Virus record (IMG/VR): IMGVR_UViG_3300044815_000221
Coordinates: 1-55,968 of that record
Reading direction: 5' to 3' (one strand)
DNA length: 55,968 nucleotides
From: a virus
The notes beneath the pieces are model-generated. The model did no database searches, had not been told where the DNA came from, and worked only from the letters and a program-made list of their open reading frames with translations. Each line of letters opens with the position of its first letter. Position 1 is the stretch's first letter. A program made the translations under genes and the position numbers. Positions 22,769 through 37,519 of the stretch are shown piece by piece.

Positions 22769-22801
22769 AGATATTTGAATTGTTTATAGCACGCAGGCTA
22801 T

Positions 22802-23098: not shown

Positions 23099-23118
23099 TT
23101 CAAATTAGCGGACATTAA

Positions 23119-23334: not shown

Positions 23335-23390
23335 AGAAAGAATCCTAACATTCGCTCCACATTACGTAAAGAAAAAATATCCTTCTAGCG

Positions 23391-23443: not shown

Positions 23444-23503
23444 AAGCATGTCAGTTGGACGTAACAACAAACCACTTTTGCAGAACTCAAGGAGACAAAG
23501 AAA

Positions 23504-23650: not shown

Positions 23651-23676
23651 CGGGAGGGGATTCCGCTAAAGAGGGG

Positions 23677-23706
23677 GGCTGGCTGGATATGGGCATCCAG
23701 CCAGCC
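23677..23706 (+). other. Perfect 12-bp mRNA hairpin after the peptide gene
   Basis: GGCTGGCTGGAT and ATCCAGCCAGCC flank a 6-nt loop. No U-run follows, so it is not a standard terminator; it may stabilise the peptide mRNA end or reduce read-through. Cassette 3 lacks it: there the next gene follows the peptide stop by 17 bases. Confidence 0.55.
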
Positions 23707-23744
23707 TCTACACCATTAACCACAACTGTTCGGAGGGGATAACG

Positions 23745-24293
23745 ATGCCAAAAGATTCTACAACACAAGAACATAAACCGCCTGAGATTTGGGTATTCCA
23801 CCCCATTGACAGCAGCGAGGCGAGAGGATTAGCCGAAGTCATCTCAAACAGAATCAACCTGTGGGAGCGTGGAGGTATAGCAGGGTTGCTTATCAAGCTC
23901 CTTGCTGGCTTGGCTGCGAATTGTGACGGTTCAGGAAATGAAAGTTGTGGGTGCGCTGTTGAAGATGTCACATGGCACGCGCTCTTTGAGTTCTTCAAGA
24001 CAACCCAAAAGTTTAATGACACGTTCCATGATTACGTCGTCAACGATTTAAAGATCGCGCACGATTTCAGGAAAGAGGAAGAATCCGAGCCAGTAGCGCA
24101 GCCGGAACGCAAGATGCACTTTGAAGGAACGCTTGAGCGCATCGCCTACATCATCGGCAAGACGCGCTTTCTACTCACAGACCAATGCGAACTAACCGAC
24201 GATGAAGCATTAGGGAAAATCCGCGACTTAATCTCGGAGATGGACTGGCGAAAGGAGGGCGCGGGCGATGAAGAAGAGGCGACCAATAACTGA
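23745..24293 (+). CDS. Hypothetical protein of cassette 2 operon (182 aa)
   Basis: ATG preceded by GGAGGGG. Acidic, soluble, mostly helical protein with a Cys-rich patch (ANCDGSGNESCGCAVED, about residues 64-80). Family not recognised. The C-terminal third (LERIAYIIGKTRFLLTDQCELTDDEALGKI) resembles in character the helical DDEALMRIRDELLDVD end of 51158-51691. It overlaps the next gene by 26 bp. Cassette 3 has different genes at this place. Confidence 0.6.
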   Translation: MPKDSTTQEHKPPEIWVFHPIDSSEARGLAEVISNRINLWERGGIAGLLIKLLAGLAANCDGSGNESCGCAVEDVTWHALFEFFKTTQKFNDTFHDYVVNDLKIAHDFRKEEESEPVAQPERKMHFEGTLERIAYIIGKTRFLLTDQCELTDDEALGKIRDLISEMDWRKEGAGDEEEATNN

Positions 24294-24630
24294 CCGCGAA
24301 ATAAGAGCCGCAGTCTTAGAAGCTCAGTTTATCGCATTGGTCATTGAGCACCCGCAAACGCCCGCGCACATTTTAGAGACGGTTAAATACATGGTGCTCG
24401 GCGCTTGTGAGGGGATAGCTAAATACTTGAAAGACCACAACCCCGACGCACAGATGGCGCATGACATTTACCCTTACGGTAGGGCGGCATTAGGCGTCCC
24501 CATGAAGAAGTGCTTCAAAATCTTCATGGAACAGGTTAAGAGTGATGCGCCCAACGTCTTACTCTCAATCATGGAGTCATTACCAAAAAGCGAGGCAAAG
24601 AACGATGAACCTAGCAATCAAACTAAATAG
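24268..24630 (+). CDS. Hypothetical protein of cassette 2 operon (120 aa)
   Basis: ATG with GGAGG upstream inside the preceding gene's end. Helical protein, no membrane segment, with a segment AAVLEAQFIALVIEHPQTPA. Not recognised. Overlaps the downstream zinc-ribbon gene, so the operon is tightly packed in phage style. Confidence 0.55.
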   Translation: MKKRRPITDREIRAAVLEAQFIALVIEHPQTPAHILETVKYMVLGACEGIAKYLKDHNPDAQMAHDIYPYGRAALGVPMKKCFKIFMEQVKSDAPNVLLSIMESLPKSEAKNDEPSNQTK

Positions 24631-24904
24631 CAACCCCAATCCTGAGCCTTGTCCACTTTGCGGTCAAGAGACTAACCCTAACATCGGCGCAGAGCTAACA
24701 CTGGCTGAGAATGAGCTAGTCGTTTGTCGTGACTGCGGCCTGACTCACGCGCCCCTGCTCGTCTCACTTCTCACGCTTGGTTTTCTCGCCACCGATTACA
24801 GCCTGTGTGAACGCGACTACGGCGACCTCTGGCAAGCCTCGCGTGAAGCTAGTCCGCGTGAAAGCCTGAACTGGAATCAACACTTGGAAGCTGATGCGGC
24901 ATGA
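24605..24904 (+). CDS. Zinc-ribbon protein of cassette operon (99 aa, cassette 2)
   Basis: Starts at MNLAIKLNSN, matched by the start in cassette 3 where a GGAGG is well placed. CPLCGQETNPN and VVCRDCGLTHAP form a zinc ribbon. Almost identical to 34183-34482. Probably a nucleic-acid or protein-binding accessory factor. Stop overlaps the next start (ATGA). Confidence 0.7.
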   Translation: MNLAIKLNSNPNPEPCPLCGQETNPNIGAELTLAENELVVCRDCGLTHAPLLVSLLTLGFLATDYSLCERDYGDLWQASREASPRESLNWNQHLEADAA

Positions 24905-25137
24905 GCGCGGCGATTCTCAACATCAATCTCATCAAGCATCCGTTGGATACTTATTTCGTGAGGTTTGGCGGCTCGATTCTAGTGGTAGATAGAGCCGCCA
25001 TTACAGATGATGGAGATACGGTGATAGTCAGACTTCACGATCAACTCATGGTTACAACACTCAACATTAAAGATGGTAGCGAGCGCGTTGATTATGAAGT
25101 TTGGGGCAAGGTTGCTTATTTCATCTTTGAAGCGTGA
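24901..25137 (+). CDS. Small S24/UmuD-like fold protein lacking the catalytic serine (cassette 2)
   Basis: A 78-aa protein with the pattern GGSILVVDRAAITDDGDTVI then VRLHDQLMVTTL, like the core of LexA/UmuD (GDLLIVDR...DGDIVVA). The usual Ser-Met motif is absent, so it is not a working peptidase. Nearly identical to 34479-34715. May act as a dimerising or decoy subunit; weak assignment. It directly precedes the endonuclease gene. Confidence 0.5.
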   Translation: MSAAILNINLIKHPLDTYFVRFGGSILVVDRAAITDDGDTVIVRLHDQLMVTTLNIKDGSERVDYEVWGKVAYFIFEA

Positions 25138-25142
25138 AGGGA

Positions 25143-25169
25143 AGGGGCGCACCGTAAAAATGCGCCCCT
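25143..25169 (+). promoter_or_regulatory. Hairpin just upstream of the cassette 2 endonuclease start
   Basis: AGGGGCGCA and TGCGCCCCT form a perfect 9-bp stem with a 9-nt loop. The purine-rich 5' arm is the only Shine-Dalgarno-like sequence before the endonuclease ATG at 25179, so the stem would mask it. The cassette 3 endonuclease has an open GAGGGG site and no such stem. Confidence 0.55.
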
Positions 25170-25178
25170 ATTAACACA

Positions 25179-26318
25179 ATGAGAAATCAATTATTAGATT
25201 GTCAAATATCGGAAATTTGTCGGCGGTATCAGGCTGGCGAATCCGCCTCATCCCTTGCAAGAGCATTCAGCGTGAACCATGAAACAATTTGCAATCGCCT
25301 TACTTGGTCGGGCATCAAGCTTCGCAGCCATAAAGAGTCGGCAGCATTAACCGGAAACTTATCCCAACATCAAATCGCTGAAATGGCATCGCTCTACCGC
25401 TCAGGCTCAACAACGCCTCAACTGGCGTCACGATATAAAATCAAGCCTCAATCAATTTCGTATCATCTCAAAAAGCAGGGCGTAGAGTTACGGGAAAGAC
25501 CCGAAGCGCGGCGCAAACATACATTAAACGAAGCGGCGTTTGATTCCCTGAATGAAGAAGGCGCGTACTGGATTGGCTTCTTGATGGCAGATGGTTGTGT
25601 CCATAAGAGAAATGGTGCTTCTCCGCGCATCTCAATAGCTTTAGCGCGTTGTGATATTGAACATCTTGAAGCATTCAAGATGTTCTTAGGAGCATCTAAC
25701 CCAATACACATAGACGGAAATTGCGCTTGCTTTTCGGTTTCCTCAAACAAGCTTTCAAACTCTATTGCAAGATATGGAATCACGCCAAGAAAATCTTTGA
25801 CGGCTAAAGTTATTGACCTTGAACAGAGCAAAGATTTCTGGCGCGGAGTAATTGATGGCGACGGCTCACTGTCAGACATTCAGAGATATTCAGACCTTAA
25901 AACCAAACATAGAACTCAATTATCCCTGCTAGGCTCTCAAGCTTTGATGGAGCAATTTTCGTTATTCGTTCAAAGCATCGCCAACTTCAAGCCTAAAACT
26001 TTTCAGCTTGGAAACATCTTCACGGTGGTTATCAGAGGGGCGACAGCCGCACAAGTTGTAACTGCGCTTTACGCGGATTGTTCGATTGCCCTTCCTAGAA
26101 AACTAAAAAGAGCAAAGAGGATAATTGAAGATTCAAAGAATATCGCACAACGTAAATGCCTAAGATGCGGGCATGTGTGGTTTCCAAATGCAAACAACCA
26201 AGCACCTAAAACATGCTCAAAATGTCGCAGCCAATGCTGGAACATCTCAAAACCTCAAAAGCATTTGCCAATTCATAATGAAGCCAAAAGCTTCTTTAAC
26301 CCAACCTTGCCGCAATGA
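25179..26318 (+). CDS. LAGLIDADG homing endonuclease with N-terminal HTH repeats and C-terminal zinc ribbon
   Basis: A 379-aa protein. Residues 1-105 hold two Hin-like HTH repeats (QISEICRRYQAGESASSLAR and QIAEMASLYRSGSTTPQLAS). Two LAGLIDADG motifs follow: YWIGFLMADG (130-139) and WRGVIDGDG (221-229), each with its acidic residue, so a monomeric double-motif nuclease. A zinc ribbon (CLRCGHVW...CSKC) ends the protein. It is on the strand opposite MuF, with its 3' end overlapping the MuF N-half. The neighbouring MuF segment is the natural candidate target. Confidence 0.85.
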   Translation: MRNQLLDCQISEICRRYQAGESASSLARAFSVNHETICNRLTWSGIKLRSHKESAALTGNLSQHQIAEMASLYRSGSTTPQLASRYKIKPQSISYHLKKQGVELRERPEARRKHTLNEAAFDSLNEEGAYWIGFLMADGCVHKRNGASPRISIALARCDIEHLEAFKMFLGASNPIHIDGNCACFSVSSNKLSNSIARYGITPRKSLTAKVIDLEQSKDFWRGVIDGDGSLSDIQRYSDLKTKHRTQLSLLGSQALMEQFSLFVQSIANFKPKTFQLGNIFTVVIRGATAAQVVTALYADCSIALPRKLKRAKRIIEDSKNIAQRKCLRCGHVWFPNANNQAPKTCSKCRSQCWNISKPQKHLPIHNEAKSFFNPTLPQ

Positions 26319-26962
26319 TACGCCGCTCGCATATTCTTTCTAAATAGCACTTCCAAGTGAAGCGGGCTTATCGGATGGCACTCAAAAGTTTTGTCAAAAA
26401 TTGTCTCAAGGTGAAACGCTCCAAGCTGCGCCTGACTCGCGCCGTCGAGAATTTCACGAAAGCGTTTAATGGTCTCGCGCTGCGGCGTGCCCTCTTCGAG
26501 TGCGCGTGCAATCTCCGTCTTAAATCCTTCGAGAACGTCATCGCGATAGATGCCGCCAACTGTAAAGGCCGACGCACGCGCTTCATCGCGCAAGTCATCA
26601 AACTCTTTGCGCGTGACAACTTTCTTCCTGCGGAAATACTCAATCGCCTTTGTCGGGGCAACGTCGAACTTGAAGAAATCCTCTTCAGCGAACTCAACCT
26701 GATCGTTGACCTCCGACACCTGATCGCGCCCCAACAGATAAGACGCCAACAATCCATCGCCGAGCACTTCAAAAAGAAGATCGAATGAACCAATAAACTT
26801 TTCAAAGAACAGGGCTGGCAACTTCGCCAGGTTCTCTTGCTTTTCAAGATGGACGATGATTTCGCCTAACGCTTCATCGTAGAAGGGCGCAGCTTCTCGA
26901 AGCGTTCCATCTTCAAAGGCTCGCCGTCGCCCAACCCCATAAGCGACCTGCATGTTCGTCAA
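26273..26962 (-). CDS. MuF head morphogenesis protein, N-terminal half (gene split by cassette)
   Basis: Residues about 90-195 match the MuF/SPP1 gp7 N-domain: FKFDVAPTKAIEYFRRKKVV, ARASAFTVGG, RFREILDG and GAFHLETIFDKT. There the family sequence breaks; the last 32 residues read into the cassette, opposite the endonuclease gene, and include a second MuF-like piece (HLEVLFRKNMRAAY). The first 18 residues (TNMQVAYGVGRRRAFED) are a copy of the sequence that starts the C-half, so MuF target sequence flanks both ends. The start codon is only a TTG. Confidence 0.8.
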   Translation of the reverse strand: MTNMQVAYGVGRRRAFEDGTLREAAPFYDEALGEIIVHLEKQENLAKLPALFFEKFIGSFDLLFEVLGDGLLASYLLGRDQVSEVNDQVEFAEEDFFKFDVAPTKAIEYFRRKKVVTRKEFDDLRDEARASAFTVGGIYRDDVLEGFKTEIARALEEGTPQRETIKRFREILDGASQAQLGAFHLETIFDKTFECHPISPLHLEVLFRKNMRAAYHCGKVGLKKLLASL

Positions 26963-27252
26963 ACACGCTCGAAAGTTCCGCTCTCAAGCGGCCTTTGCGG
27001 AATCAACAGGAGCGTTCCCGCTTCGATTTGCCGCACGTCCGCGATCCTGTTGCGCTCGGCGATCAAGCGCCACAATCGCCAGTCTGAATAAAAGCGATGC
27101 GCTAAACCTGTCAGCGTGTCGCTTCCTCTGAAAATATATTCAGTACCTGTCAGCGTGTCGCTTCCTCTGAAAATATATTCAGTCAGATAAGCATCCGTCT
27201 CCGGCGACAACTCACCGTAGCGTTCGTATGGGCTAATGCTGCGCTTGCTCAT
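26959..27252 (-). CDS. LysM-domain tail adaptor with internal duplication (module 3)
   Basis: A 97-aa paralogue of the other LysM proteins (SISPYERYGELSPETDAYL, then GLAHRFYSDWRLW). A 13-residue unit TEYIFRGSDTLTG occurs twice in tandem, encoded by a 39-bp exact repeat, which lengthens the first strand of the LysM domain. The gene follows the hub gene here, the reverse of modules 1 and 2, and its TGA stop forms the MuF junction. Confidence 0.82.
   Translation of the reverse strand: MSKRSISPYERYGELSPETDAYLTEYIFRGSDTLTGTEYIFRGSDTLTGLAHRFYSDWRLWRLIAERNRIADVRQIEAGTLLLIPQRPLESGTFERV
27106..27183. repeat. 39-bp exact tandem duplication inside the LysM gene
   Basis: Two identical 39-bp units (27106-27144 and 27145-27183) keep the frame. 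Exact identity points to a recent slippage event, or to an assembly duplication. Confidence 0.85.
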
Positions 27253-28343
27253 TCCTCTCCCTCAATATCGGCATAAAGGTCATATTCAGTTGTGAAGCCT
27301 GCGGCAACGAGGTCGTGCGTAACCTTGTCGCAAAGGTACAATCCAGAAAACAGACTGCCAAATTCACGAAGTTCAACAGTATCACCAACATCAGCCCTCA
27401 CGCTTGGAAGCTGCGGAATTGTGCGAACGGTGCAGGAGAAAGAGTGTTCACGTTGAAGCTGTTTTTTTGCATGTGCAACGCGGTCAGCATAGCTTTGAGT
27501 GTGGTTCGCAATATCTTTCTGTAAAAAGACGTTGCCTGTGCCGCGCTTGTGCTTCCGAGATTTGCCGACGAGTGATTTACCGCCATGCCCGCGCCCGCGC
27601 ACTTCAACCACAGACGGACGCCCCCGCTTATTTTCAGGAAGCTTATAACTGAGGTCAAAGGGGCGGAGCAGCAACGCATCTTTTCTATAAGTCAAAACTA
27701 TTAATGGCTTTCTTTTGACTATGGCTGGCTCTTTTGCAAAGAGCGTATCACCTCTTACATAAAGAACGAGGCCGATTTCTCGCGCCCGCTCACTAGCCAA
27801 GTCCCAATCGGTTTGACCAGCCTGCATGTAAGAACGGTGGTGTCCTATCCTAAACTCTCTGTCAGGTCCTTCAAACTTTAGCTCACTACGTTCAGCGAGC
27901 TTCTTGAGAATTTTAAGGTCATCTCCCTTGTGGTATCCGGCATGTTCCATCTGCCGCATTTTGTAGCCCATATCATAGGCTCTTAAAGTTATGTCCGTTT
28001 CACTCTTTTCTATCCGCGCCAGCATCCCCTTGAAAACAGGCTCTCCCAATCCTTGACCAAAACCCATCCAGCAGCGCATCTCAAAAGGCAGAACTTCTTT
28101 TATTCCTAAAAGGCTGTCAACGAATTTGCCCGTTGAATCAAAGACCCTGAAAGCCGCCTCTGATGCCATGCCCGTTGTTAGCTGAACGGTAACTTGCTTG
28201 AACAGTCGAGGATGCCGCCAAGAATCCCAAACCTGCTGCCGAAGGATGATTTTGTCACCATGCTTGTCACGCGCATACTTGCCATGCTCATCATGTTTAT
28301 AAACCGTCAATTCTATTGCGGCGTGTGGGTTGTCGGGCGTCAT
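27249..28343 (-). CDS. Late control D-type tail hub protein (module 3)
   Basis: A 364-aa hub paralogue: QVWDSWRHPRLFKQVTVQLT, DWDLASERAREIGLVLYVRG, the R-G-R-G-H-G-G motif and HAKKQLQREHSFSCTVRTI. It has an extra charged stretch near the N-terminus (YKHDEHGKYARDKHGD) that modules 1 and 2 lack. It overlaps both neighbours by 4 bp. Confidence 0.85.
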   Translation of the reverse strand: MTPDNPHAAIELTVYKHDEHGKYARDKHGDKIILRQQVWDSWRHPRLFKQVTVQLTTGMASEAAFRVFDSTGKFVDSLLGIKEVLPFEMRCWMGFGQGLGEPVFKGMLARIEKSETDITLRAYDMGYKMRQMEHAGYHKGDDLKILKKLAERSELKFEGPDREFRIGHHRSYMQAGQTDWDLASERAREIGLVLYVRGDTLFAKEPAIVKRKPLIVLTYRKDALLLRPFDLSYKLPENKRGRPSVVEVRGRGHGGKSLVGKSRKHKRGTGNVFLQKDIANHTQSYADRVAHAKKQLQREHSFSCTVRTIPQLPSVRADVGDTVELREFGSLFSGLYLCDKVTHDLVAAGFTTEYDLYADIEGEE

Positions 28344-30961
28344 CCTTCACCCCTTTCTCTATACCTATCTATCCGGTTTGAAAGTCGCGCCTCAACTATG
28401 TTTGTAAGTTGGTGTGCGTGTTCTTCAAGCAACGCCGCGAACTGTTGAGGGCTGCTGCCATCGCCTTTGATTTCAAGTTTCGGAGAGTAGGTAATATGAA
28501 CGTGCGTATCTCCGCCTTTCATAAGACCCCTTGCAAGACCTGCATTGAGCGCGGATGTGTTTAATTTAGACGGAGGATATTCAAATGTATTTTTGCCAAG
28601 CAGATTCAATGACGGAATCGGCGCAGGCGTGGGAGTAGGGCTTGGCTGAACCCCGCCGCTCGGTAAAGGAACATTATTCAATCGTGAGGCTGAGTTATTG
28701 AAGCTATCGGTTAAAGAGGTGGCCGCGCCTCCCAAATTGGAGAAGCTGGAAGGAAGAGGAAATAGCTGCGATTGAAGTTGACCGAAATACTGATTAGTAG
28801 GTATCAGTTGTTGGCTTAAATTCTGAAAACCTTCGGTTGCTTGTTGGGTTGGCTGTCTCAACCCCTCTATCTCTTTTTGATACTCCTGCCATGCCTTAGA
28901 GAATCCAACCGGAAATTCCTTTTGCAGTGACTTGTAAAGGTCGGGCGTAGCCTGTGGTGTCAAGCCAAGCTTGCCTAACTGGGCAAAGGCTTGGCGCATC
29001 ACTTTAGGGTCGTCGAGCATTGGCGCAACATGCCTAAAAATTCCGCCTGCTTTATCAGGGTCAAACGTATTAAATACATTCCAACGTGAGCCATAGGGGC
29101 GGTCAGCAGTCCAAGCATGGCCCCAGAAGCCTCCGAACTTTTCAGGCATGAGTGCAGATTCTAGTTCCTGCTTTCGATTTATTGCTTCAACTGCTTTTTG
29201 AGCAAGACCCCTTGAATCATCTCCCGATGTGTCTATCCCAAGAAGGCGGTTTGACCGTTGCCGCGATTTATAATCTGCAAACGACTCGCCCGATGATTTC
29301 GCAAAGTCACGCCTATCAGCCTCTCGCTTATCGTATTCGTCTTTTAATTCGAGCAGCTTTTCTAACGCCATCCCTGCAACCGTAAGCTTCAATGCCACAG
29401 TGAACGGCGATGATGTCAAAGATGTGAGCTTGCCTTTTAGACCCGATAATTTGCTTTCGGTTGACTTGATGGCATCACTAACAACGGGTGTTGATTTCTG
29501 CCATGCGCTTGTAAAGCCGATTGTTCTTTTCTCAGCCACTACTAATGAATCGCCTAGCCCTCTAGCTCCTTTGTCGCTATTGGAGAAGAAGCTGAATAAC
29601 TTAGAAGTGCCGAGAATGGTTGCCGTTTCTGCTATTCCACCTAATGCCTTACCACCGACAATCAGCCCTAAAGACCAGTTCGGATGATCGGACATCCATT
29701 GAAAGAAAGGCAAAGCTTTGGTTGCTAATTGCGTTCCAACTTCAACAAGCGGCTTCCCAACGCCAGCGCGAAAATTCTCAACCGACGCCTTATACTGTTC
29801 AAGCTTGCCCTGTGCCGAATCTAGCGCTTGCTTATTAAGCTCATCAACGCCTGTTGATTTTTCGGCAAGCCCAGATTCTTTTAAGACTTGATTCCTTTGC
29901 GTGGTAAGCAGGCTCATCATCCGAAAAGCAGTACTCTTCTGGAAAAGCAACCCTAGCTCCGCGCGAACAGCGTTATCATCGGCGGTATTGATGCCGTGAG
30001 TTTTCATCGCCCCCATGAGCATATCGGCAGCTTCTAAGGGGTCGCGCATGAACGGCTCTGCCAGCTTGTTACCGCCAGGTAGAATCCGTTTTATCTTCTG
30101 AGCCTTACCAAACTGAACTTTGTTTTTATCAACTAACCCAAGCCGCGAAAATTCCTCTGCCGCGTATTGCGGCGTCACGCCAGTAACCATAGCGCGATAA
30201 CCTGACAGCAAAGCCGTTCCCGCTCCCGCTCCTTTCAGTTCCATCAAAACGCTTTGCATGTGGCGCAAGCCTTCAACAGATAAGCCCTGAGCGGCAGGCG
30301 AACCCATGCGAGCGAAATCAAACAACTCAGTAGGAGAAACCTTTCCAGCGCGTGCAGTTTGCATCTGCACCATCACGTTGAAATACTTCTCCATCTCAGC
30401 GCGCCCCTTCGCAACCTTCCCCGTCACTTCAAGAAAGCGGAAAGCTGCGTCGGTCTGCTTTTCAATCTCTTCTGTGCTGTATTGATCTCCAAATTTAGCC
30501 TTAAAGCCAAACTCGTACTTAGTAGCAAGAGGCAAGGCTTCAATGGCCTCATCTAAACTACCGAGTGCGGTATGTAGGGTTGTTATCGCGGTTGTCGTGT
30601 CCGTGAGGGAGAGGCCGCCCAAACTTTGTACGTTTTTTCGGACGGCATCAAACGCCTTCGCGTTGTCAGATGGTGATAGATTTATAGCCTCGAACTTACC
30701 TTGCGCTCTCAAAAGCCTCATGTAAGCATCGGTGTAATCCTCAAGAGAATCAATTCGATTCTTCCAAACAGAACTAACACGCGCAATAGGGTCAAAGACT
30801 TCGTTGTGAAGCTTTGAGAGATGGCCGAGCGTTCCGGCATACTTCGCCGTCGTCCCGCCTAGCCCGTGAAGCTTCTTCTCGAATTTATCAAGCCCCACCG
30901 ATGCCCTATCTTGGAGGGATAGCAGAATTGATAATTCATATACTGAACCTGAATTTCCCAT
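28340..30961 (-). CDS. Tail tape measure protein (module 3, 873 aa)
   Basis: Longest of the three tape measures. The N-terminus YELSILLSLQDRASVGLDKF matches modules 1 and 2. Residues about 185-375 are nearly identical to module 2, with divergent ends. The C-terminus HVHITYSPKLEIKGDG resembles module 1 instead (NVNYSPKIEITGGDP), so the gene is a mosaic. It starts 12 bp after the chaperone stop. Confidence 0.88.
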   Translation of the reverse strand: MGNSGSVYELSILLSLQDRASVGLDKFEKKLHGLGGTTAKYAGTLGHLSKLHNEVFDPIARVSSVWKNRIDSLEDYTDAYMRLLRAQGKFEAINLSPSDNAKAFDAVRKNVQSLGGLSLTDTTTAITTLHTALGSLDEAIEALPLATKYEFGFKAKFGDQYSTEEIEKQTDAAFRFLEVTGKVAKGRAEMEKYFNVMVQMQTARAGKVSPTELFDFARMGSPAAQGLSVEGLRHMQSVLMELKGAGAGTALLSGYRAMVTGVTPQYAAEEFSRLGLVDKNKVQFGKAQKIKRILPGGNKLAEPFMRDPLEAADMLMGAMKTHGINTADDNAVRAELGLLFQKSTAFRMMSLLTTQRNQVLKESGLAEKSTGVDELNKQALDSAQGKLEQYKASVENFRAGVGKPLVEVGTQLATKALPFFQWMSDHPNWSLGLIVGGKALGGIAETATILGTSKLFSFFSNSDKGARGLGDSLVVAEKRTIGFTSAWQKSTPVVSDAIKSTESKLSGLKGKLTSLTSSPFTVALKLTVAGMALEKLLELKDEYDKREADRRDFAKSSGESFADYKSRQRSNRLLGIDTSGDDSRGLAQKAVEAINRKQELESALMPEKFGGFWGHAWTADRPYGSRWNVFNTFDPDKAGGIFRHVAPMLDDPKVMRQAFAQLGKLGLTPQATPDLYKSLQKEFPVGFSKAWQEYQKEIEGLRQPTQQATEGFQNLSQQLIPTNQYFGQLQSQLFPLPSSFSNLGGAATSLTDSFNNSASRLNNVPLPSGGVQPSPTPTPAPIPSLNLLGKNTFEYPPSKLNTSALNAGLARGLMKGGDTHVHITYSPKLEIKGDGSSPQQFAALLEEHAHQLTNIVEARLSNRIDRYRERGEG

Positions 30962-30973
30962 TGCTCTTTATCT

Positions 30974-31639
30974 CTACTGTGCTGCGGTTGGATTGTTGGC
31001 TTGCCTTTGGGCTAAACGCTCTGCCCGAACTGACAGCATCCACAGTTCGCTGTGAGACAAAATCGCTAAAACGTCTATGCCAGCCAAATCATCAAAAGCC
31101 CTTACATCAAGCAAGCCTTCCACAACTTTTTCACCGTTGCTTTGACGCAGGCGCACAATCTCACGACCCGCCAGAAAACATCTCATCCTTGACGCAGACT
31201 CGCGCTCGCTCTTTTCAGCATCAACGACATCACGCCCCGTCAAGACTCGCCCGAACTCCACGACATCAAAAACATCGCCGTTGACTTCATACCCGTAAAC
31301 AAGTTTGAGAGAGTTACTGCTGAGAGGCTGCGGTTCGCCGTGTTGCCCGACGAAGTTATTGTAGGCTTCAACTAAATCTTCAAGGTCAATCGAATCAAGG
31401 TCTAAAAGAACTCCTCGACTAACAGGAATAGGAAGGTCGCCAAATTTAGTAATAGCTCTTTCCAGTGCTAAGACGTTGAAAAGCGTCTCGCCCTTTTCAT
31501 TTCGATACCTCATATTCATTTCAATTAAAAAGAGGTCGCCGCCTTTAAGCAGGCTACCGATGGTGACATCTTTGTGATTCACCTCGCCTTTATCAGTATG
31601 ACCAACTTCCAGCGTTACTTTGACAGGAGATGCTTCCAT
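30974..31639 (-). CDS. Tail assembly chaperone, G-type, without T extension (module 3)
   Basis: A 221-aa paralogue with the duplicated beta pattern (EVGHTDKGEVNHKDVTIG and VYGYEVNGDVFDVVEFG). Where modules 1 and 2 have TCN-TTT-CGC, this copy has TCA-GTT-CGG, and the +1 frame stops at once, so the frameshift and T domain are lost. The zero frame ends in a short Gln/Asn tail before the tape measure gene. Confidence 0.8.
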   Translation of the reverse strand: MEASPVKVTLEVGHTDKGEVNHKDVTIGSLLKGGDLFLIEMNMRYRNEKGETLFNVLALERAITKFGDLPIPVSRGVLLDLDSIDLEDLVEAYNNFVGQHGEPQPLSSNSLKLVYGYEVNGDVFDVVEFGRVLTGRDVVDAEKSERESASRMRCFLAGREIVRLRQSNGEKVVEGLLDVRAFDDLAGIDVLAILSHSELWMLSVRAERLAQRQANNPTAAQ

Positions 31640-31664
31640 GATTCGTTCCTTTCGATGTGATAAA

Positions 31665-31750
31665 TAAGAAAAAGCCCGCCAACCTTTTCAGGCCAACGGG
31701 CTGCACATGAGCCGCTAATGATCGCTATTTAGGGACTGTGAAAGTCCGCA
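31665..31750 (-). ncRNA. Repeated structured leader RNA element, copy D (upstream of chaperone 3)
   Basis: Minus-strand reading: hairpin GGACT-ttcac-AGTCC (31733-31747), 19-nt linker, GGCTCATGTGCAGCCCG and a 12-bp stem with inner TTGGCC/GGTTGG pairing and U-rich tail (31673-31702). A six-codon frame M-C-S-P-L-A ends in the loop. Upstream hairpin and stem are nearly the same as copy C, consistent with common cassette ancestry. Confidence 0.62.
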
Positions 31751-31793
31751 AGATTTCGGGATGAATATAGAGCGTGAGAGATATTAGAGCAAA

Positions 31794-32003
31794 TTAAATT
31801 CCCCTTGTATTGCGTTCGACAGGCCACCGGACAAAAGCAAACACAAAAAGAGCAATGAGGTTGATTATAGGAATTAACACAATCAAACTATACCAACCTG
31901 AAAAACCAGCCTTTGTGCAAATTCGCCAAAGCGGAACGATGAAAACAACACAGACGAAGGCAAGCAAAAACAGTTCAGTAGTTCCTATATTCTCAAATCT
32001 CAT
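31794..32003 (-). CDS. Small two-helix membrane protein (cassette 3)
   Basis: A 69-aa protein with two hydrophobic helices (ELFLLAFVCVVFIVPLWRI and WYSLIVLIPIINLIALFVFA), resembling short DUF805-type membrane proteins. It takes the place held by the zinc-ribbon membrane protein in cassette 2. Start overlaps the preceding stop by 4 bp. Confidence 0.65.
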   Translation of the reverse strand: MRFENIGTTELFLLAFVCVVFIVPLWRICTKAGFSGWYSLIVLIPIINLIALFVFAFVRWPVERNTRGI

Positions 32004-32230
32004 CTCTGCCCTTCCTCATCGGTTTCAGCTTGAGCCTCAACAATCTTCTCAAGCTTTTTAGCATCGAACGTGCCTGCAATCGTGCCGTCAGGAAGCATGA
32101 TGACAGCCGTGTAAGTTGCGCCTCTCGCGTCGCTGTGAGTGTTCGTTCTAAGCACCATGCCAATCTTCCCCGCATAGCGTCCAGAGGGAACGCGCACATT
32201 ATCTTCAACATCAACCATAGCACCGCTCAC
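32000..32230 (-). CDS. Small KOW-like beta-barrel protein (cassette 3)
   Basis: A 76-aa protein; GTG start overlaps the repressor stop (GTGA). DNVRVPSGRYAGKIGMVLR fits a KOW motif (V-x-S/G-G-x-x-x-G-x-x-G-x-V), found in RNA- and polymerase-binding proteins such as NusG. The C-terminus is acidic. A role in transcription or RNA binding is possible but unproven. An internal ATG (MVDVEDNV) is an alternative start. Confidence 0.6.
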   Translation of the reverse strand: MSGAMVDVEDNVRVPSGRYAGKIGMVLRTNTHSDARGATYTAVIMLPDGTIAGTFDAKKLEKIVEAQAETDEEGQR

Positions 32231-32433
32231 TTCTTGCTAGGCTTCTTCTTGCTTTTATTTTTAGCATGATTGCGCTCAATAGTTTCCAGCGCAAGCGATA
32301 GATATTCCGGTATAGAGCGTGCGCCGCGCTCCCAACGTGAAACAGTCATAATGTCCACGCCCAAAGCCTCTGCCAGTTGCCCCTGAGTAAAACCAAGCGA
32401 CTCACGCCTCTGTTTTAATTCATCACCGCTCAT
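32227..32433 (-). CDS. XRE-type HTH repressor of cassette 3
   Basis: A 68-aa protein started at MSGDELKQRRESLG; the longer frame would run across an operator. Classic HTH: RESLGFTQGQLAEALGVDIM then TVSRWERGARSIP. Lys-rich C-terminus. It is divergent from the plus-strand operon, whose promoter has two palindromes; a third lies just upstream of this start, fitting autoregulation. Confidence 0.85.
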   Translation of the reverse strand: MSGDELKQRRESLGFTQGQLAEALGVDIMTVSRWERGARSIPEYLSLALETIERNHAKNKSKKKPSKK

Positions 32434-32443
32434 ATGTCGAAGT

Positions 32444-32460
32444 CTATGCCAATGGCCTAC
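32444..32460. promoter_or_regulatory. Third operator-like site at the cassette 3 repressor start
   Basis: CTATGCCAATGGCCTAC matches the core of the two palindromes at the operon promoter with one mismatch and lies 11 bp before the repressor ATG. Likely autoregulatory operator. Confidence 0.6.
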
Positions 32461-32507
32461 TAGCGTCAAGAATCTTTTACGCAGAGGCGAACGAAGGACA
32501 AATGTTA

Positions 32508-32562
32508 ATTAGGCCAATGGCCTAATTATATTGTTGACATCATTAGGCCATTGGCCTATACT
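32508..32562 (+). promoter_or_regulatory. Cassette 3 operon promoter with two palindromic operators
   Basis: TTGACA (32534-32539), 17-bp spacer, TATACT (32557-32562). Operator 1, ATTAGGCCAATGGCCTAAT (32508-32526), lies just upstream of the -35. Operator 2, ATTAGGCCATTGGCCTATA (32542-32560), fills the spacer and enters the -10, so repressor binding would block polymerase. These sites have no likeness to the cassette 2 operator. Confidence 0.85.
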
Positions 32563-32622
32563 ATATTCATCAGTTGGACGTAACAACAAATCACTTTTGC
32601 AGAACTCAAGGAGACAAAGAAG

Positions 32623-32769
32623 ATGAATCACACGACGAACCAAACCTCAATCAACATCAACACCACGAACGCCAAGCCGCAGACAGTCAACGCCATCAAG
32701 AAAGTCATGGTCTATGACTTGAGAGGGCAGGGGCGCGCGATTGAGAAGATGCGTGGGATTCAGATTTAA
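32623..32769 (+). CDS. Conserved 48-aa peptide, first gene of cassette 3 operon
   Basis: Copy of 23504-23650 with five residue changes (for example H for R at 3, T for M at 5 and I for V at the end). Leader and Shine-Dalgarno are almost the same. The changes are conservative and the frame is kept, supporting a translated product. Confidence 0.78.
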   Translation: MNHTTNQTSININTTNAKPQTVNAIKKVMVYDLRGQGRAIEKMRGIQI

Positions 32770-32786
32770 GTAGCGGGAGGGGAACA

Positions 32787-33218
32787 ATGCCGAGAAAGAA
32801 TATCACAACGAAGAAACAACGGCGCAGATACAAAGACGTAAACAGGGATTATGAAGAAGAGTCCAACCTTGAAAACGTCAACCTCACAGATTTTGTAACT
32901 CAACACCCGACGCTGACCTTCTTGATGATGGTTGAAGATAGCTATAACGGGGGATTTGGAATACTGGCTGGCGATATTCTTATCGTCAATCGAGCCATCA
33001 AGCCACAAGTCGGCGACCTTGTAGTTGTTGAGCATTTGGGAGAGTCCATCATCGGAAAAATTGAGATTGAGAACGGAGAGTATTGGTTAAGCGATAACAA
33101 TATCTTAAGACTCTTTAGGGGTGACACCGTAACGCTTGGCCTCTCCGACCTTGATGAAGATGTCTTTGGAAGGATTACTCATTTAATCCGTGATTTCCGA
33201 GATGGAGGCAAGCAATGA
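32787..33218 (+). CDS. S24/UmuD-like protein (cassette 3)
   Basis: A 143-aa protein with GGGAGGGG upstream. The central region VEDSYNGGFGILAGDILIVN then RAIKPQVGDLVVVEHLGES follows the LexA/UmuD S24 pattern, with Ser in EDSY at the place of the catalytic Ser and Lys in SIIGKIEI near the expected Lys. The N-terminus is basic, without an HTH. It could be an autocleaving UmuD-like protein that links the cassette to DNA damage; catalytic competence is uncertain. Confidence 0.65.
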   Translation: MPRKNITTKKQRRRYKDVNRDYEEESNLENVNLTDFVTQHPTLTFLMMVEDSYNGGFGILAGDILIVNRAIKPQVGDLVVVEHLGESIIGKIEIENGEYWLSDNNILRLFRGDTVTLGLSDLDEDVFGRITHLIRDFRDGGKQ

Positions 33219-33613
33219 ATCGCAAAGTCTCCATCACATACAACGTTGAAGAACTTTTCAGCTTGGCTGGCGACCAACCGACCCCAACAACGCACCACTT
33301 TCTCGCAACACGTACCGCCGTCGAACATCTACACGGCCTCATGGTGTTGCTTTCATTCATCGGCCACACCGAAACCTTTCAGACTATCGAAGATCGCAAC
33401 TTAGACGCCTTGACGGGCGCTCTGCGCTTGGTTGGAGAACTCGGCGCGGCTATCGGAGAACAATGCGGCGTGCGGTTCAACGACTTCGCGCAAGCGATGA
33501 AGAATCGGGTTCACGAAGTTGCCACAGAGTCAATGTTTGCGGAGCGCGAGCAGGCAAAGAGGCGAGCCGAATTTAAGAAGGAGGGCGCGAGCGATGAAAC
33601 CAGCAGAGGATAA
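33215..33613 (+). CDS. Hypothetical helical protein (cassette 3 operon)
   Basis: A 132-aa protein overlapping the S24-like gene by 4 bp. The central part (ALRLVGELGAAIGEQCGVRF) is helical and the C-terminus is charged. Family not recognised. Overlaps the next gene by 20 bp. Confidence 0.58.
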   Translation: MNRKVSITYNVEELFSLAGDQPTPTTHHFLATRTAVEHLHGLMVLLSFIGHTETFQTIEDRNLDALTGALRLVGELGAAIGEQCGVRFNDFAQAMKNRVHEVATESMFAEREQAKRRAEFKKEGASDETSRG

Positions 33614-33878
33614 CAAACACGGCTTCAAAGCCATCGAGAGCGATGATGAAGTGAGCTATCTGGTTACTCAAATCTTGCAATCCGACAACGATCTCGGCGC
33701 GGTTTGCCTCATCTCGCTGTTGGGCAAAGTTGCGTATGCCAGCGAACCAAGCAAGACCGACGCGATTAGAAATGCCGCCAACCAAGCCCACTACTACACG
33801 AGCGAATTTGATAATGCCATTGAACGGCTAATTATGCAGGCGGTTAACCACAAATGGAATGGAGGCGATGAAGAGTGA
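33594..33878 (+). CDS. Hypothetical protein, tandem paralogue 1 (cassette 3 operon)
   Basis: A 94-aa protein started at MKPAEDNKHGFK, with GGAGG upstream. It is clearly related to the next gene: shared pattern FKxI...LVxQIL...GAV...ISLLGKVAY...IRNAANQAHYY. Both are small helical proteins with no known family; a recent duplication gives a tandem pair. Confidence 0.6.
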   Translation: MKPAEDNKHGFKAIESDDEVSYLVTQILQSDNDLGAVCLISLLGKVAYASEPSKTDAIRNAANQAHYYTSEFDNAIERLIMQAVNHKWNGGDEE

Positions 33879-34186
33879 TGAAAAGCAACCTTGAGCTTGA
33901 ACGCCAGAAAAGGCTAGAGAAGCTAAGTAACCCTTACAACTTCAAATCCATCACGGATGAAGAAGCCGCGCATCTAGTCGCACAAATTCTGTGGGCAAGT
34001 CAAAGCATCGGCGCAGTCGCATTGATCGCTCTCATCGGCAGCATTGCCTATGAAGAGAATCTTGTCCACAAGTGTGACCTCATCAGACACGCCGCGAACG
34101 AAGCCTATACAGCAACTATGGACTTTGATGAATCGGCGGAGAGCTTCATCAGAAAAACAGCTAAGAATTGGAGGAACGCGAAATGA
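33878..34186 (+). CDS. Hypothetical protein, tandem paralogue 2 (cassette 3 operon)
   Basis: A 102-aa protein; ATG overlaps the previous stop by one base (TGATG). Core LVAQILWASQSIGAVALIAL then IGSIAYEE and DLIRHAANEAYTATM matches the preceding gene. Unknown function; translationally coupled within the operon. Confidence 0.6.
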   Translation: MKSNLELERQKRLEKLSNPYNFKSITDEEAAHLVAQILWASQSIGAVALIALIGSIAYEENLVHKCDLIRHAANEAYTATMDFDESAESFIRKTAKNWRNAK

Positions 34187-34482
34187 ATCTAGCAATCAAA
34201 CTAAACAGCAACCCAATCCCTGAACCCTGCCCGCTCTGCGGTCAGGAAACCAATCCCAACATCGGCGCGGAATTGACGTTAGCCGAAAATGAGCTAGTTG
34301 TCTGTCGTGACTGTGGATTGACTCACGCGCCCGTACTCGTCTCACTTCTCACGCTTGGGTTTCTCGCCAACGATTACACCTTATGCGAGCGTGACTTTGG
34401 CGACCTCTGGCAAGCCTCGCGTGAAACGCGCCCGCGTGAAAGCCTGAACTGGAATCAACACTTGAAAGCTGATGCGGCATGA
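34183..34482 (+). CDS. Zinc-ribbon protein of cassette operon (99 aa, cassette 3)
   Basis: Near-identical to 24605-24904, with ATG nine bases after GGAGG. CPLCGQETNPN and VVCRDCGLTH are kept. Differences are scattered and mainly synonymous or conservative, which suggests selection on the protein. Confidence 0.72.
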   Translation: MNLAIKLNSNPIPEPCPLCGQETNPNIGAELTLAENELVVCRDCGLTHAPVLVSLLTLGFLANDYTLCERDFGDLWQASRETRPRESLNWNQHLKADAA

Positions 34483-34715
34483 GTGCGGCGATTCTCAACA
34501 TCAATCTCATCAAGCATCCGTTGGATACTTATTTCGTGAGATACGGCGGCTCGATTCTAGTGATAGATAGAGCCGCCATTACAGACGATGGCGACACAGT
34601 GATAGTCAGACTTCACGATCAACTGATGGTTACAACACTCAATATTAAAGATGGTAGCGAGCGCGTCGATTTTGAAGTGTGGGGCAAGGTTTCTTATTTC
34701 ATCTTTGAAGCGTGA
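34479..34715 (+). CDS. Small S24/UmuD-like fold protein lacking the catalytic serine (cassette 3)
   Basis: Near-identical to 24901-25137, with GGSILVIDRAAITDDGDTVI. It co-occurs with a longer S24-like protein in this cassette, so a heterodimer of active and inactive subunits, like UmuD forms, is conceivable. It stops 10 bp before the endonuclease start. Confidence 0.5.
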   Translation: MSAAILNINLIKHPLDTYFVRYGGSILVIDRAAITDDGDTVIVRLHDQLMVTTLNIKDGSERVDFEVWGKVSYFIFEA

Positions 34716-34725
34716 GGGGCAAGTT

Positions 34726-35892
34726 ATGAAAGGTGGATTATTAACAGGCCGTCAAATATCAGAGATTTGCTTGCGGTATCAGGCTGGCGAATCCGCTAAT
34801 GCTTTGTCAAAAGTGTTCGGTCTGGCTAGTGCCGCCCCGATCATCTATCATGTCAAGCGGCACGGCATCTCTGTTCGCGGGCTGATGGATGCAACCCGAC
34901 TCGTTAGAAAGCTGAACGATAATCAAGTTGACGAAATCTGCAAACGGTATCAGGCGGGCGAATCGTCCCTTACTATCGCCAAAGATTTTCAAGTTTCAAA
35001 ACACACTGTACGTGCTGAGTTAAAGCGTCGAGGTCTTCAAAGAACGGCGGTTGAAGCGGCGAGATTATTTAACAAGTCCCACCTGCGTAGTTCCCAAAAA
35101 ATAATCCACAGATATTTAGAAGGTGAATCATCCACAGCTATTGCCAGAGATTTCAACTGTGGAGCAAATCTTATACGCAACATCCTTAAAGGAGCAGGAA
35201 TAGACCGACGCCCGCCTTCTGTCGCTAATAGGAAATGCACGCTTAATGAATCGGCTTTTGATTCTATCACCGAAGAGAGCGCGTACTGGCTTGGCTTTCT
35301 AATGGCAGATGGCGCAGTCTGTGAACGCAAAGATGGCTCGCCTGTAATAACGCTTAAACTAAAAGAGAGCGACTTAGAACATGTAGAATCTTTTAGAAAA
35401 TTCTTAGGCTCATCAAGCAAAATCTCTCGCGTCTTTGATAAAAAAGGGCACAGTGTTGCGCTCACAGTCACATCAAGACATCTCGTTAATGCTGTCGCTA
35501 GGTATGGCGTCACTCCAAGAAAGAGTTTTACAGCCAAAGTCGTTGGACTAGAGCTTAATAAAGATTTCTGGCGTGGGTGTGTTGATGGCGATGGCTGCCT
35601 TCCAGCAAATCCGAAAAAAAGACGTTATTTGATAGCACTGTATGGCTCAAGTTTCATCACAACTCAATTCGCAGCATTCATCTCTGAGCTTACAGAAACC
35701 ATGCCGCCAGTGCCTTATAAGGACGGCAATATCTACGCCTTACGCCTCTATGGTGTGCGGGCTATGCGGGTGATTGACGCACTCTATTCAAACTGCACAA
35801 TTGCCCTTCCTCGAAAGCTTGAAAGAGCCGAAAGAATCTTAGAATCTCGAATGCCCGCACAACGGAGACCCTATCAACATTCTTTGAAATGA
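34726..35892 (+). CDS. LAGLIDADG homing endonuclease with three N-terminal HTH repeats
   Basis: A 388-aa protein from ATG with GAGGGG upstream. Three HTH repeats in residues 8-160 (QISEICLRYQAGESANALSK, QVDEICKRYQAGESSLTIAK and IIHRYLEGESSTAIARDF) against two in cassette 2. LAGLIDADG motifs are YWLGFLMADG (187-196) and WRGCVDGDG (282-290). It has no C-terminal zinc ribbon. Its stop is two bases from the portal stop (convergent). HTH arrays presumably add DNA contacts and set site specificity. Confidence 0.85.
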   Translation: MKGGLLTGRQISEICLRYQAGESANALSKVFGLASAAPIIYHVKRHGISVRGLMDATRLVRKLNDNQVDEICKRYQAGESSLTIAKDFQVSKHTVRAELKRRGLQRTAVEAARLFNKSHLRSSQKIIHRYLEGESSTAIARDFNCGANLIRNILKGAGIDRRPPSVANRKCTLNESAFDSITEESAYWLGFLMADGAVCERKDGSPVITLKLKESDLEHVESFRKFLGSSSKISRVFDKKGHSVALTVTSRHLVNAVARYGVTPRKSFTAKVVGLELNKDFWRGCVDGDGCLPANPKKRRYLIALYGSSFITTQFAAFISELTETMPPVPYKDGNIYALRLYGVRAMRVIDALYSNCTIALPRKLERAERILESRMPAQRRPYQHSLK

Positions 35893-35894
35893 AG

Positions 35895-37319
35895 TCATGC
35901 TACATCATCGAGCGGCTTCTTCAATCTGTCGCTCGATGGTCTGGGCTTTTTTTTTTGCTGCTCGGCGAACTCGCCGCCTCCACCCGTCGCTTCGCTTGGG
36001 CTGGTGTCTTCCTGATTGCTCGCGGGCGGCGGCAACACTTCTTCATCTTCGCCTGGCTCCGGCAACTGGAACGTGTTGTAAACGAAGTCGCGCTTGATCG
36101 GGACGTGCATCTGCCACAGACGTTGCAGCCAGTTTGAGATTTCAGTCAGGTCTTTGCCTGTCTCGTAATTGATGCCCCACACCGGAGGCCGCGCAACCGG
36201 CCCAAAATTCATTAACGTAAGCGGCCAAACCAAACGGGTGTTGACGGCCATCATCAAACTCTTGGAATCAACTTCCGTCTTTCGCGCTTCGCCCCGCTCG
36301 TGAACTTCACCAAGCGAACGGCTGCCGCCGCCTTCGCTGCCACGACTCGTCAACGTCTGGCCGCGAATCACCCTCGCGATTCCGTTGTTGCAGAAGTCGT
36401 CAACAAACTCGCTGTACGTGCTGCCCATTGATTGCCGCACATGTTCCATATTATCAACCAGAAACTTCTTCGGCAGCGCGACGGCGCTCTCTTCAAAGAT
36501 CGCGCGTGCGGCATCGAGCGCGAGTGCCTGTTCAGCTTCACCCGCGCCGTCGTTGTATCTCGCGATAACAGAGCCTGCGCCCTTCTCGCCATAGCGTAGC
36601 CAGTTCTTCACCTGTGCGCGCTTGAACCAACTGAGCCAGAAAACTTTTCTGAGCAGCGGCGATCCCCAACGGTTTCCATGTCGCGGGCGAAAGCTATGCA
36701 CGAAGAATTTCTTTTCCGGCAACGGCGTTTCACTACTGAGTCCTTCACCAAAAATGCCTGGCCTCAATCTGAGCGGGCCGGTTTGTGGATACGGGTAGGT
36801 TGAGGTCGAGTACGCGGCCATCCGGCCTTCGCCGAAAGAGAACAGATGCTGCGGCTTGAATCGAACATCTTTGATGAAGATGCGGTCAGCCGCTTCGCCG
36901 TAAATCGTTTCCCCAATCGCGACGCCCTTGCCAATCGCATCCAACGCTTCATACAGCACGTTCTCGAAACCGATATGCGCGCCGTCCTGAACATCGAAAT
37001 AACTCTCCAACGTCTCTTCAATAAACTCTGCCAGCTTGTGATCCTGTCGCTTGTCACCCGCAGGCAACACGCGCCGCGACTTCGCCAGGACGTTCTCCTT
37101 GCGAGCATCAAGACACATCGCGACCTGATCGTCTTTCTCTTCGAGGTCTTCATAGACGACCATCGAGAGCCAGGGATTCCAGCGCAACTGCTCCCAAACC
37201 CAACTTGGATTGTCGGGCAGTCCCTGCCCTTGCAGCCCGTAAGCGAGATTCATAAAACTTCCGATGCGCTCGCTCGAAAGTATCTCGTCTGTCAGATTGT
37301 TATCGTTTTTTGGTTCCAT
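35895..37319 (-). CDS. Portal protein (Mu gp29-like, DUF935 family)
   Basis: A 474-aa portal subunit started at MEPKNDNNLTDEIL, whose ATG overlaps the preceding stop (TGATG). Family features: NPWLSMVVYEDLEEKDDQVA, a long helical body with RPRHGNRWGSPLLRKVFWLS, KNWLRYGEKGAG and VIRGQTLTSRGSEGGGSRSL. In Mu the next gene is MuF; here the convergent endonuclease of cassette 3 comes first. The C-terminus is Pro/Lys-rich and may be slightly altered by the insertion. Confidence 0.88.
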   Translation of the reverse strand: MEPKNDNNLTDEILSSERIGSFMNLAYGLQGQGLPDNPSWVWEQLRWNPWLSMVVYEDLEEKDDQVAMCLDARKENVLAKSRRVLPAGDKRQDHKLAEFIEETLESYFDVQDGAHIGFENVLYEALDAIGKGVAIGETIYGEAADRIFIKDVRFKPQHLFSFGEGRMAAYSTSTYPYPQTGPLRLRPGIFGEGLSSETPLPEKKFFVHSFRPRHGNRWGSPLLRKVFWLSWFKRAQVKNWLRYGEKGAGSVIARYNDGAGEAEQALALDAARAIFEESAVALPKKFLVDNMEHVRQSMGSTYSEFVDDFCNNGIARVIRGQTLTSRGSEGGGSRSLGEVHERGEARKTEVDSKSLMMAVNTRLVWPLTLMNFGPVARPPVWGINYETGKDLTEISNWLQRLWQMHVPIKRDFVYNTFQLPEPGEDEEVLPPPASNQEDTSPSEATGGGGEFAEQQKKKPRPSSDRLKKPLDDVA

Positions 37320-37519
37320 CAAGCTATAACCGCAGCACCAAAGAGTTCGCAAATATGTCGAGTCGCAGCAATCCAGGCATTGATAATTGCTTCCGGCAAA
37401 TCATTGAATGCAGGCATTTCCTCACCGCGAAAATTCTTATTGCCAGTGTTGGCTGCATAGGCTTCGTAACCAGCCTGCGCTAAATTTCGCCAGTGAATTT
37501 CCATCGTTCTTACAGCCAT
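37319..37519 (-). CDS. Small protein between terminase and portal
   Basis: A 66-aa helical protein (WRNLAQAGYEAYAANTGNKN, then PAFNDLPEAIINAWIAATRH) coupled to the portal gene by TGATG overlap and starting 1 bp after the terminase stop. Not recognised; the helical pair could be a small binding adaptor. Confidence 0.55.
   Translation of the reverse strand: MAVRTMEIHWRNLAQAGYEAYAANTGNKNFRGEEMPAFNDLPEAIINAWIAATRHICELFGAAVIA

Follow-up and report, generated by a model that had tools for sequence, protein, structure and literature searches.

Two divergent nuclease cassettes carrying tail genes and separate repressors at the MuF gene of a Mu-like phage: candidate members of a site-specific mobile island

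The window analysed here, by which we mean the whole 55,968-base stretch of IMG/VR record IMGVR_UViG_3300044815_000221, is the virus record of a Mu-like phage with a contractile tail. Besides the phage's own tail core (cassette 1), it carries two large inserts, cassettes 2 and 3, each of which combines tail genes with a repressor gene, an operon that begins with a gene for a 48-amino-acid (48-aa) peptide, and a gene for a LAGLIDADG nuclease (HE_2 and HE_3 respectively). An original prediction, made from the sequence, held that cassette 3 repeats the plan of cassette 2 while lacking its spike and tube-initiator genes, and that it lies between the genes for portal and MuF. Family profile matches confirm the common plan gene by gene, and comparison with the tail loci of relatives reveals no spike or tube-initiator gene in cassette 3. 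The predicted gene list is correct except that cassette 3 encodes an additional S24 protein. The predicted location needs correction: cassette 3 occupies the portal/MuF overlap, and MuF itself is split by cassette 2.

With a MuA-type transposase A (Mu-transpos_C, 3e-8), Portal_Mu, MuF (Phage_Mu_F), a sheath and tail genes all present, the backbone is that of a Mu-like transposable phage. Its nearest relatives are two prophages in Acidobacteria metagenome genomes (L076 and L077) and two IMG/VR contigs (L156 and L157), and the host group of the phage is soil Acidobacteria. Identity to L076 and L077 is 65-66% for MuF and 66-67% for portal, and that of the terminase is 70% in L077. Gene order is collinear with both prophages and with L257, a locus of G070, which is a genome of the same class. 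The tail genes of relatives are arranged as sheath, tube, chaperone, tape measure, tube initiator, LysM, gpD and spike, and the tail core native to the phage (2163-8469) follows the same arrangement; a PAAR gene follows spike both in the window and in L260.

These relatives define the empty sites. In L076, L077, L156 and L157 the portal gene overlaps MuF, and MuF is a single uninterrupted frame; portal and MuF are contiguous in L257 also. Among other MuF loci in genomes and IMG/VR, 160 of 160 are uninterrupted across the codon boundary F^RTN, a few of them ending at a contig edge. When the MuF of the window is aligned to relatives, native sequence extends to HLETIF at 26397 and begins again from 17076 at RTNCQVAYGVGRR, and cassette 2 therefore sits at F^RTN. 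AlphaFold2 modelling of the MuF protein of L077 (mean predicted local distance difference test score 62.7, locally about 77-84) places this boundary within the helix formed by residues 164-188.

Cassette 3 lies at the portal/MuF overlap, where native sequence ends near 35911 and restarts at 26914. Its left end consists of sixteen MuF-type codons (TNMQVAYGVGRRRAFE plus a start codon), TNMQ..RRRAFE, which are neither portal nor tail sequence. The fragment scores 14.6 bits against the MuF hidden Markov model (HMM), compared with 1.9 for the best of 500 shuffles of the companion peptide from cassette 2. These codons meet the N-terminal region of MuF exactly at a CTTGAAGA-like stretch that is common to both in relatives. 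Because the left end of cassette 3 retains this MuF stretch, both cassettes trace to the same MuF site, and the simplest history would be that cassette 3 once resided at F^RTN and was shifted upstream via recombination at that match. A placement of cassette 3 inside the portal frame via a 4-bp GATG match was dropped, as relatives place the sequence that follows the insert in the overlapping MuF frame.

The right end of cassette 2 carries a second, divergent MuF motif. The N-terminal MuF piece continues into DKTFECHPISPLHLEVLFRKNMRAAYHCGKVGLKKLLASL, just past the end of the HE_2 gene and overlapping the last codons of HE_2, and the motif in this extension scores 16.6 bits against the MuF HMM (500 shuffles, at most 1.9). 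Read simply, cassette 2 would end the broken MuF in a replacement helix unlike the natural target, and this helix would presumably escape the nuclease. The distance from gene B to the spike gene, about 29.7 kb in G002 versus about 47.9 kb here, becomes 29.6 kb when both inserts (18.3 kb) are subtracted.

A split intein at the MuF break was considered and rejected on the basis of the MuF halves, which give no Hint match, and of an inspection of the sequence ends. Searches for a group I or group II intron gave no Rfam match at the gathering threshold, none of the intron kind at a permissive threshold, and no known RNA. The MuF gene of L157 does hold a second kind of selfish element, an in-frame intein-like insert at about 10190-11066 (GFNC/CRCSV). 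In L076, L077, L156 and L157, portal and MuF overlap in different frames, and a conserved run of nine or ten A residues lies near the portal 3' end in 4 of 4 aligned relatives (the same four; the corresponding stretch of the window is 35944-35960). The run and the frame overlap suggest programmed frameshifting that would yield a portal-MuF fusion. Accessory genes are also gained downstream of MuF, as in L156, where several fibre-like genes lie between MuF and the protease gene (11020-14840).

Several products are shared by the two cassettes well beyond chance, with amino acid identities of 90% for the 48-aa peptide, 92% for a zinc ribbon protein, 95% for an S24-like protein, 43% for the nuclease and 56% for the tape measure. 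At the DNA level, 85-96% identity is confined to the 48-aa leader gene, the zinc ribbon and S24-like pair, and a central stretch of 200 tape measure codons; the remaining DNA is about 36% to 75% identical. Synonymous divergence (dS) is 0.10, 0.25, 0.97 or saturated, depending on the segment, and the ratio of nonsynonymous to synonymous divergence (dN/dS) is low: the zinc ribbon (dS 0.97) has a value of 0.04, the S24-like protein 0.09 and the tape measure 0.29, and tail genes in segments with unsaturated dS have values of 0.12-0.29. A value of 0.44 for the 48-aa gene is based on eight changes only. The genes common to both cassettes are under purifying selection. Given the patchy identity, the segment-wise dS and the low dN/dS, the cassettes are old, mosaic and selected elements that did not arise by recent duplication. 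Between the gene for the 48-aa peptide and that for the zinc ribbon, the two cassettes carry unrelated genes, as had been predicted for the middle of the operon.

The tail genes of cassette 3 run in the order chaperone, tape measure, gpD, LysM. The LysM, spike and tube initiator proteins of the cassettes resemble their counterparts in cassette 1 more closely than they do the proteins of relatives, and the cassette tape measures have a middle part in common with P2-like tape measures (28%) and with a tail locus of G158. Since no sheath, tube or capsid gene is found in the cassette cargo, the cargo could replace a tail spindle only and could not build a tail. PADLOC identified no defence gene. 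The LysM gene of cassette 3 holds an exact, in-frame 39-bp tandem repeat (27106-27183) that reflects recent slippage or an assembly error. Two neighbouring operon genes of cassette 3 (33594-33878 and 33875-34186) are paralogues (43% identity, 3e-16). In the cassette 2 operon, the product of 23745-24293 matches that of an early gene of the phage (51158-51691), a neighbour of transposition gene B, over a 39-residue segment (46%, 2e-6).

The repressors belong to different helix-turn-helix (HTH) families, HTH_3 in cassette 3 and HTH_26 in cassette 2. A palindrome, TAGGCCAWTGGCCTA, occurs in three copies, all of them in cassette 3 (0.5 expected from whole-window shuffles), and one copy lies in the spacer of a near-perfect TTGACA-17-TATACT promoter for the 48-aa gene. 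The equivalent place in cassette 2 has a TTGACA-18-TAATAT promoter and none of these palindromes. The two strongest promoter matches of the whole region precede the two 48-aa genes. The predicted lack of relationship between repressors and between operators is thus borne out, and with the dS range from 0.10 to saturation and dN/dS of 0.04-0.29, so is the view that the cassettes are related but separately regulated and not a simple duplication. Separate regulation is supported, and each repressor would be expected to confer its own immunity.

An RNA element predicted in both cassettes is present, although its core is a terminator-type hairpin that precedes several late genes throughout the phage family (protease, tape measure, portal) and is not specific to the cassettes. 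It occurs on the minus strand at 7343, 15873, 22690, 31670 and 42615, and in relatives, and is preceded by GGCTC(A/G)T..AGCCCG. As GGCT can pair with AGCC, the hairpin may be a regulated terminator.

Both nucleases retain the two LAGLIDADG motifs with their acidic residues (WIGFLMADG and WRGVIDGDG in HE_2; WLGFLMADG and WRGCVDGDG in HE_3), which places them among the LAGLIDADG homing endonucleases, with MuF as the presumed site of cleavage. Each cassette encodes a single nuclease, whose gene occupies the right end of the insert beside the target, a conserved codon block. Blocks of this type are the usual kind of homing site. The possibility that HE_3 is truncated was rejected, because it covers the full phrog_4645 profile and is missing the C-terminal zinc ribbon alone. 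A sequence search of the PDB gave no useful structure for the nuclease. The closest nuclease homologue (43-45%) is encoded next to a tape measure gene on an unrelated phage contig (L003, 3856-10870), in a neighbourhood that also holds a small HTH gene and a divergent small gene. A 128-aa gene of L003, tried as a relative of the cassette 3 paralogue pair, gave no significant match (E about 0.2). Coordinates of all features are collected in Table 1.

Table 1. Features of the MuF region and of the phage's own tail core (window coordinates)
Feature	Position	Strand	Remarks
Tail core of the phage, cassette 1	2163-8469	-	native position and order; order matches L258, L260, L262
MuF C-terminal half	16650-17168	-	PF04233 4.7e-16, profile 40-111 of 112; phrog_220 993-1066
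Cassette 2, whole insert	17077-26396		9.3 kb; inside MuF at F^RTN
Cassette 2 tail genes	17077-22663	-	chaperone, tape measure, LysM, gpD, spike, tube initiator
Cassette 2 repressor	23119-23334	-	HTH_26 1.6e-13
Cassette 2 48-aa peptide	23504-23650	+
LAGLIDADG nuclease HE_2	25179-26318	+	phrog_4645 9.6e-44; C-terminal zinc ribbon
Second, divergent MuF motif (SPLHLEVLFRKNMRAAYHCGKV)	26273-26396	-	right end of cassette 2; terminates N-terminal MuF piece
MuF N-terminal half	26273-26962	-	phrog_220 7e-23, profile 862-1004; native sequence down to 26397
Cassette 3, whole insert	26915-35910		about 9.0 kb; bounds by comparison with empty sites in L076, L077, L156, L157
MuF-derived fragment TNMQVAYGVGRRRAFE	26915-26962	-	left end of cassette 3; joined to N-terminal region of MuF open reading frame
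LysM/gp53-like protein 3	26959-27252	-	contains exact 39-bp tandem repeat
gpD-like hub protein 3	27249-28343	-	phrog_52 3e-19
Tape measure 3	28340-30961	-	28% to P2-like tape measures of Burkholderia/Acidovorax phages
Tail assembly chaperone 3	30974-31639	-	phrog_508 1.9e-6; homologues in L258, L260
Terminator-type hairpin, preceded by GGCTCATGTGC	31666-31754	-	directly upstream of tail genes
Small membrane protein	31794-32003	-
XRE repressor, 80 aa	32227-32469	-	HTH_3 1.4e-10
Operator/promoter region	32442-32562		palindromes at 32445, 32510, 32544; promoter TTGACA-17-TATACT at 32534-32562
Leader and 48-aa peptide	32623-32769	+	first gene of operon; 90% identical to 23504-23650
UmuD-like S24 protein	32787-33218	+	PF00717 1.2e-6; cassette 3 only
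Three operon genes	33215-34186	+	no family match
Zinc-ribbon protein	34183-34482	+	92% aa identity to cassette 2 copy; dN/dS 0.04
S24/UmuD-like protein, 78 aa	34479-34715	+	95% aa identity to cassette 2 copy, which matches phrog_811 (UmuD-like)
LAGLIDADG nuclease HE_3	34651 or 34726-35892	+	phrog_4645 endonuclease 1.3e-49, LAGLIDADG_3; N-terminal HTH repeats
Portal (Portal_Mu)	35895-37352	-	PF06074 5e-66; 3' end, after A10 run, adjoins cassette 3

A homing island with its own switch fits these features best: the nuclease lies by its target, the target consists of conserved codons, and the late genes stand behind the hairpin of the phage family. We propose, with middling confidence, that a site-specific mobile island inserts at the F^RTN codons of MuF in Mu-like phages of Acidobacteria, and that cassettes 2 and 3 represent two divergent versions of it. 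Each island would comprise a switch of the lysogeny type, formed by the repressor and a divergent early promoter that reads from the 48-aa peptide through to the nuclease, and a late block in the orientation of the phage that encodes an alternative tail spindle (chaperone, tape measure and hub). In the prophage state the repressor would hold the nuclease off. Upon induction, or upon an encounter with a related genome, the nuclease would cut MuF where the site is empty, and repair of the break, with the genome that bears the island as template, would copy the entire island (homing). The resident MuF would then be made as two pieces, the island giving the N-terminal piece a substitute end, and the late block would be transcribed alongside other late genes to produce alternative tail parts. 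Cassette 3 would have arrived likewise and then relocated to the MuF 5' end through recombination across a short CTTGAAGATG-like match, a step that would account for the MuF codons at its left end. Cleavage specificity, homing, excision, expression, viability, the use of spare tail parts and the function of split MuF are all properties that we infer from the arrangement of the genes.

Several points weigh against this proposal. The two inserts add about 40% to a genome of roughly 45 kb, and for lambda about 10% extra DNA is quoted as the limit (PMC10111431). The composite is likely too large for a Mu-like head and so perhaps could not be packaged, from which it follows that the island might spread solely via recombination between co-resident genomes, or that the composite is dead. 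Cassette 3 has no MuF copy at its right end, and its right junction is not explained by homing. Each island has a single nuclease, whereas the islands built around homing endonuclease genes (HEG-islands) that are discussed below have one at each end. The split MuF may be non-functional, although it could be tolerated, because the MuF-type protein gp7 of SPP1 is dispensable for assembly (virions that lack it are less infectious, at about 25%; PMC6316719) and genes split by nucleases can keep their function. Finally, the island is on no second contig in the collections searched, none of which yielded a relative of the 48-aa peptide or of the zinc ribbon.

The searches behind this last point covered the 48-aa peptide in IMG/VR (pattern scans), phages and plasmids (tblastn) and 162 genomes of the class, and the zinc ribbon in IMG/VR (pattern scans), phages (tblastn) and 396 genomes of the phylum; neither was found. 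The S24-like protein gave nothing by pattern scan of IMG/VR or by tblastn in phages, and the tape measure and portal gave nothing by pattern scans of IMG/VR. The nuclease family phrog_4645 is widespread, with 69 viral loci, and in none of these does another cassette gene lie within 10 kb. The suggestion that the cassettes represent a wider family of elements that compete or co-exist, to be recognized by the pairing of the 48-aa peptide with the endonuclease, thus gained nothing from the databases. These negatives are weak evidence, because the collections hold only about five close relatives of the phage, and a wider family is neither supported nor excluded; the family claim is based on the two copies in this one contig.

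Other histories would account for part of the evidence. The cassettes could be remnants of illegitimate recombination among related Mu-like phages in a decayed composite prophage, immobile and non-functional, which would explain a MuF broken in two places, a shuffled gene order, the microhomology junction of cassette 3, the tandem repeat in its LysM gene and the addition of 18 kb that is probably over head capacity. We regard decay as unlikely, since every cassette and MuF frame is open, purifying selection has acted over dS of up to about 1 or saturation, and two diverged elements that trace to one MuF codon boundary are unexpected from random recombination.

It is rather unlikely that the cassettes are satellite-like elements comparable to helper-embedded phage-inducible chromosomal islands (HE-PICIs), in which induced excision restores MuF and the phage packages the element. 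A position inside a late gene of the host prophage, an own repressor and captured late genes would all be expected of such an element, and HE-PICIs are known with several copies per prophage and with late-gene capture (PMC10111431). The cassette proteins scanned, however, include no integrase, AlpA or primase family match; the only end repeat is a 7-bp CCCAACC that is part of the cassette 2 MuF motif and expected by chance, with nothing comparable in cassette 3; and excision between two divergent MuF motifs would not yield native MuF.

A tail-switching module owned by the phage, in which three alternative spindles would permit changes in tail length or host entry and the nuclease would be hitchhiking, would be consistent with three sets of chaperone, tape measure and hub under purifying selection, and with a late 5' hairpin common to the phage's own late genes. 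We consider it quite improbable, as it leaves the separate repressors, the nucleases at the right ends and the insertion within MuF unexplained. That pieces of several phage strains were joined in assembly is barely credible even for a metagenome contig with exact repeats of up to 62 bp between cassettes, because none of the four junctions has a repeat longer than 17 bp and because frames and gene spacing agree with relatives once the inserts are removed; the same short junction repeats and 62-bp maximum make an assembly collapse unlikely.

Few parts of phage genomes are exchanged as often as tail modules, yet the agent of their transfer seldom comes into view. In this window the mobile unit would combine a defined target with a nuclease, a switch and a cargo of tail genes, and a single genome holds two versions of it, under different regulation, that trace to one target. 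Should the nuclease cut MuF, selfish DNA would be tied directly to tail exchange, and the element could bring its own immunity into a prophage. The window also offers a natural test case for whether a MuF protein works in two pieces. We advance only tentatively, and with some doubt, the further idea that these are a distinct class of mobile element: integrase-free LAGLIDADG-homing islands in one MuF codon block, with heteroimmune repressors, that move a tail spindle between Mu-like phages and end the interrupted protein with a recoded target motif.

Among known systems, the cassettes would fall between HEG-islands and satellites embedded in late genes. HEG-islands link homing nucleases with tail or capsid cargo and are thought to shuttle structural genes between phages (Barth, Dunham and Seed 2023; PMC10448857). 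The cassettes resemble them in linking structural cargo (chaperone, tape measure, hub and LysM) to a homing endonuclease. HEG-islands are bracketed by at least two nucleases, replace resident genes and have no discrete ends (PMC10448857), whereas each cassette has one nuclease and its own repressor, the resident tail genes are kept, and there is an exact end in MuF. Recurrence in otherwise dissimilar phages would also be expected of a HEG-island, and no copy of the present island was found beyond this contig in the collections searched. HE-PICIs (Tommasini, Mageeney and Williams 2023; PMC10111431) are similar in their location within a prophage late gene (cassette 2 lies in MuF), their captured late genes, their own immunity and their presence in several copies per prophage, but they carry AlpA, primase and, near one end together with AlpA, a tyrosine integrase (PMC10111431), families without a match in the cassette proteins scanned. 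HE-PICIs also have att repeats, for which an identity block of at least 7 bp would be expected, a length that the CCCAACC of cassette 2 just reaches. The MuF intein of L157 is likewise a selfish element in the same gene of a close relative; it is, however, an in-frame protein insert some way downstream in MuF, and no intein parts occur at F^RTN in the window. In the split nrdA of phage Aeh1, which carries mobE, and the split gene 60 of T4, which carries mobA, a homing endonuclease likewise interrupts a critical part of a phage gene, and the two resulting polypeptides can still work together (PMC2988022). There the insert is the nuclease alone, whereas at MuF the insert measures about 9 kb and includes tail genes and a repressor.

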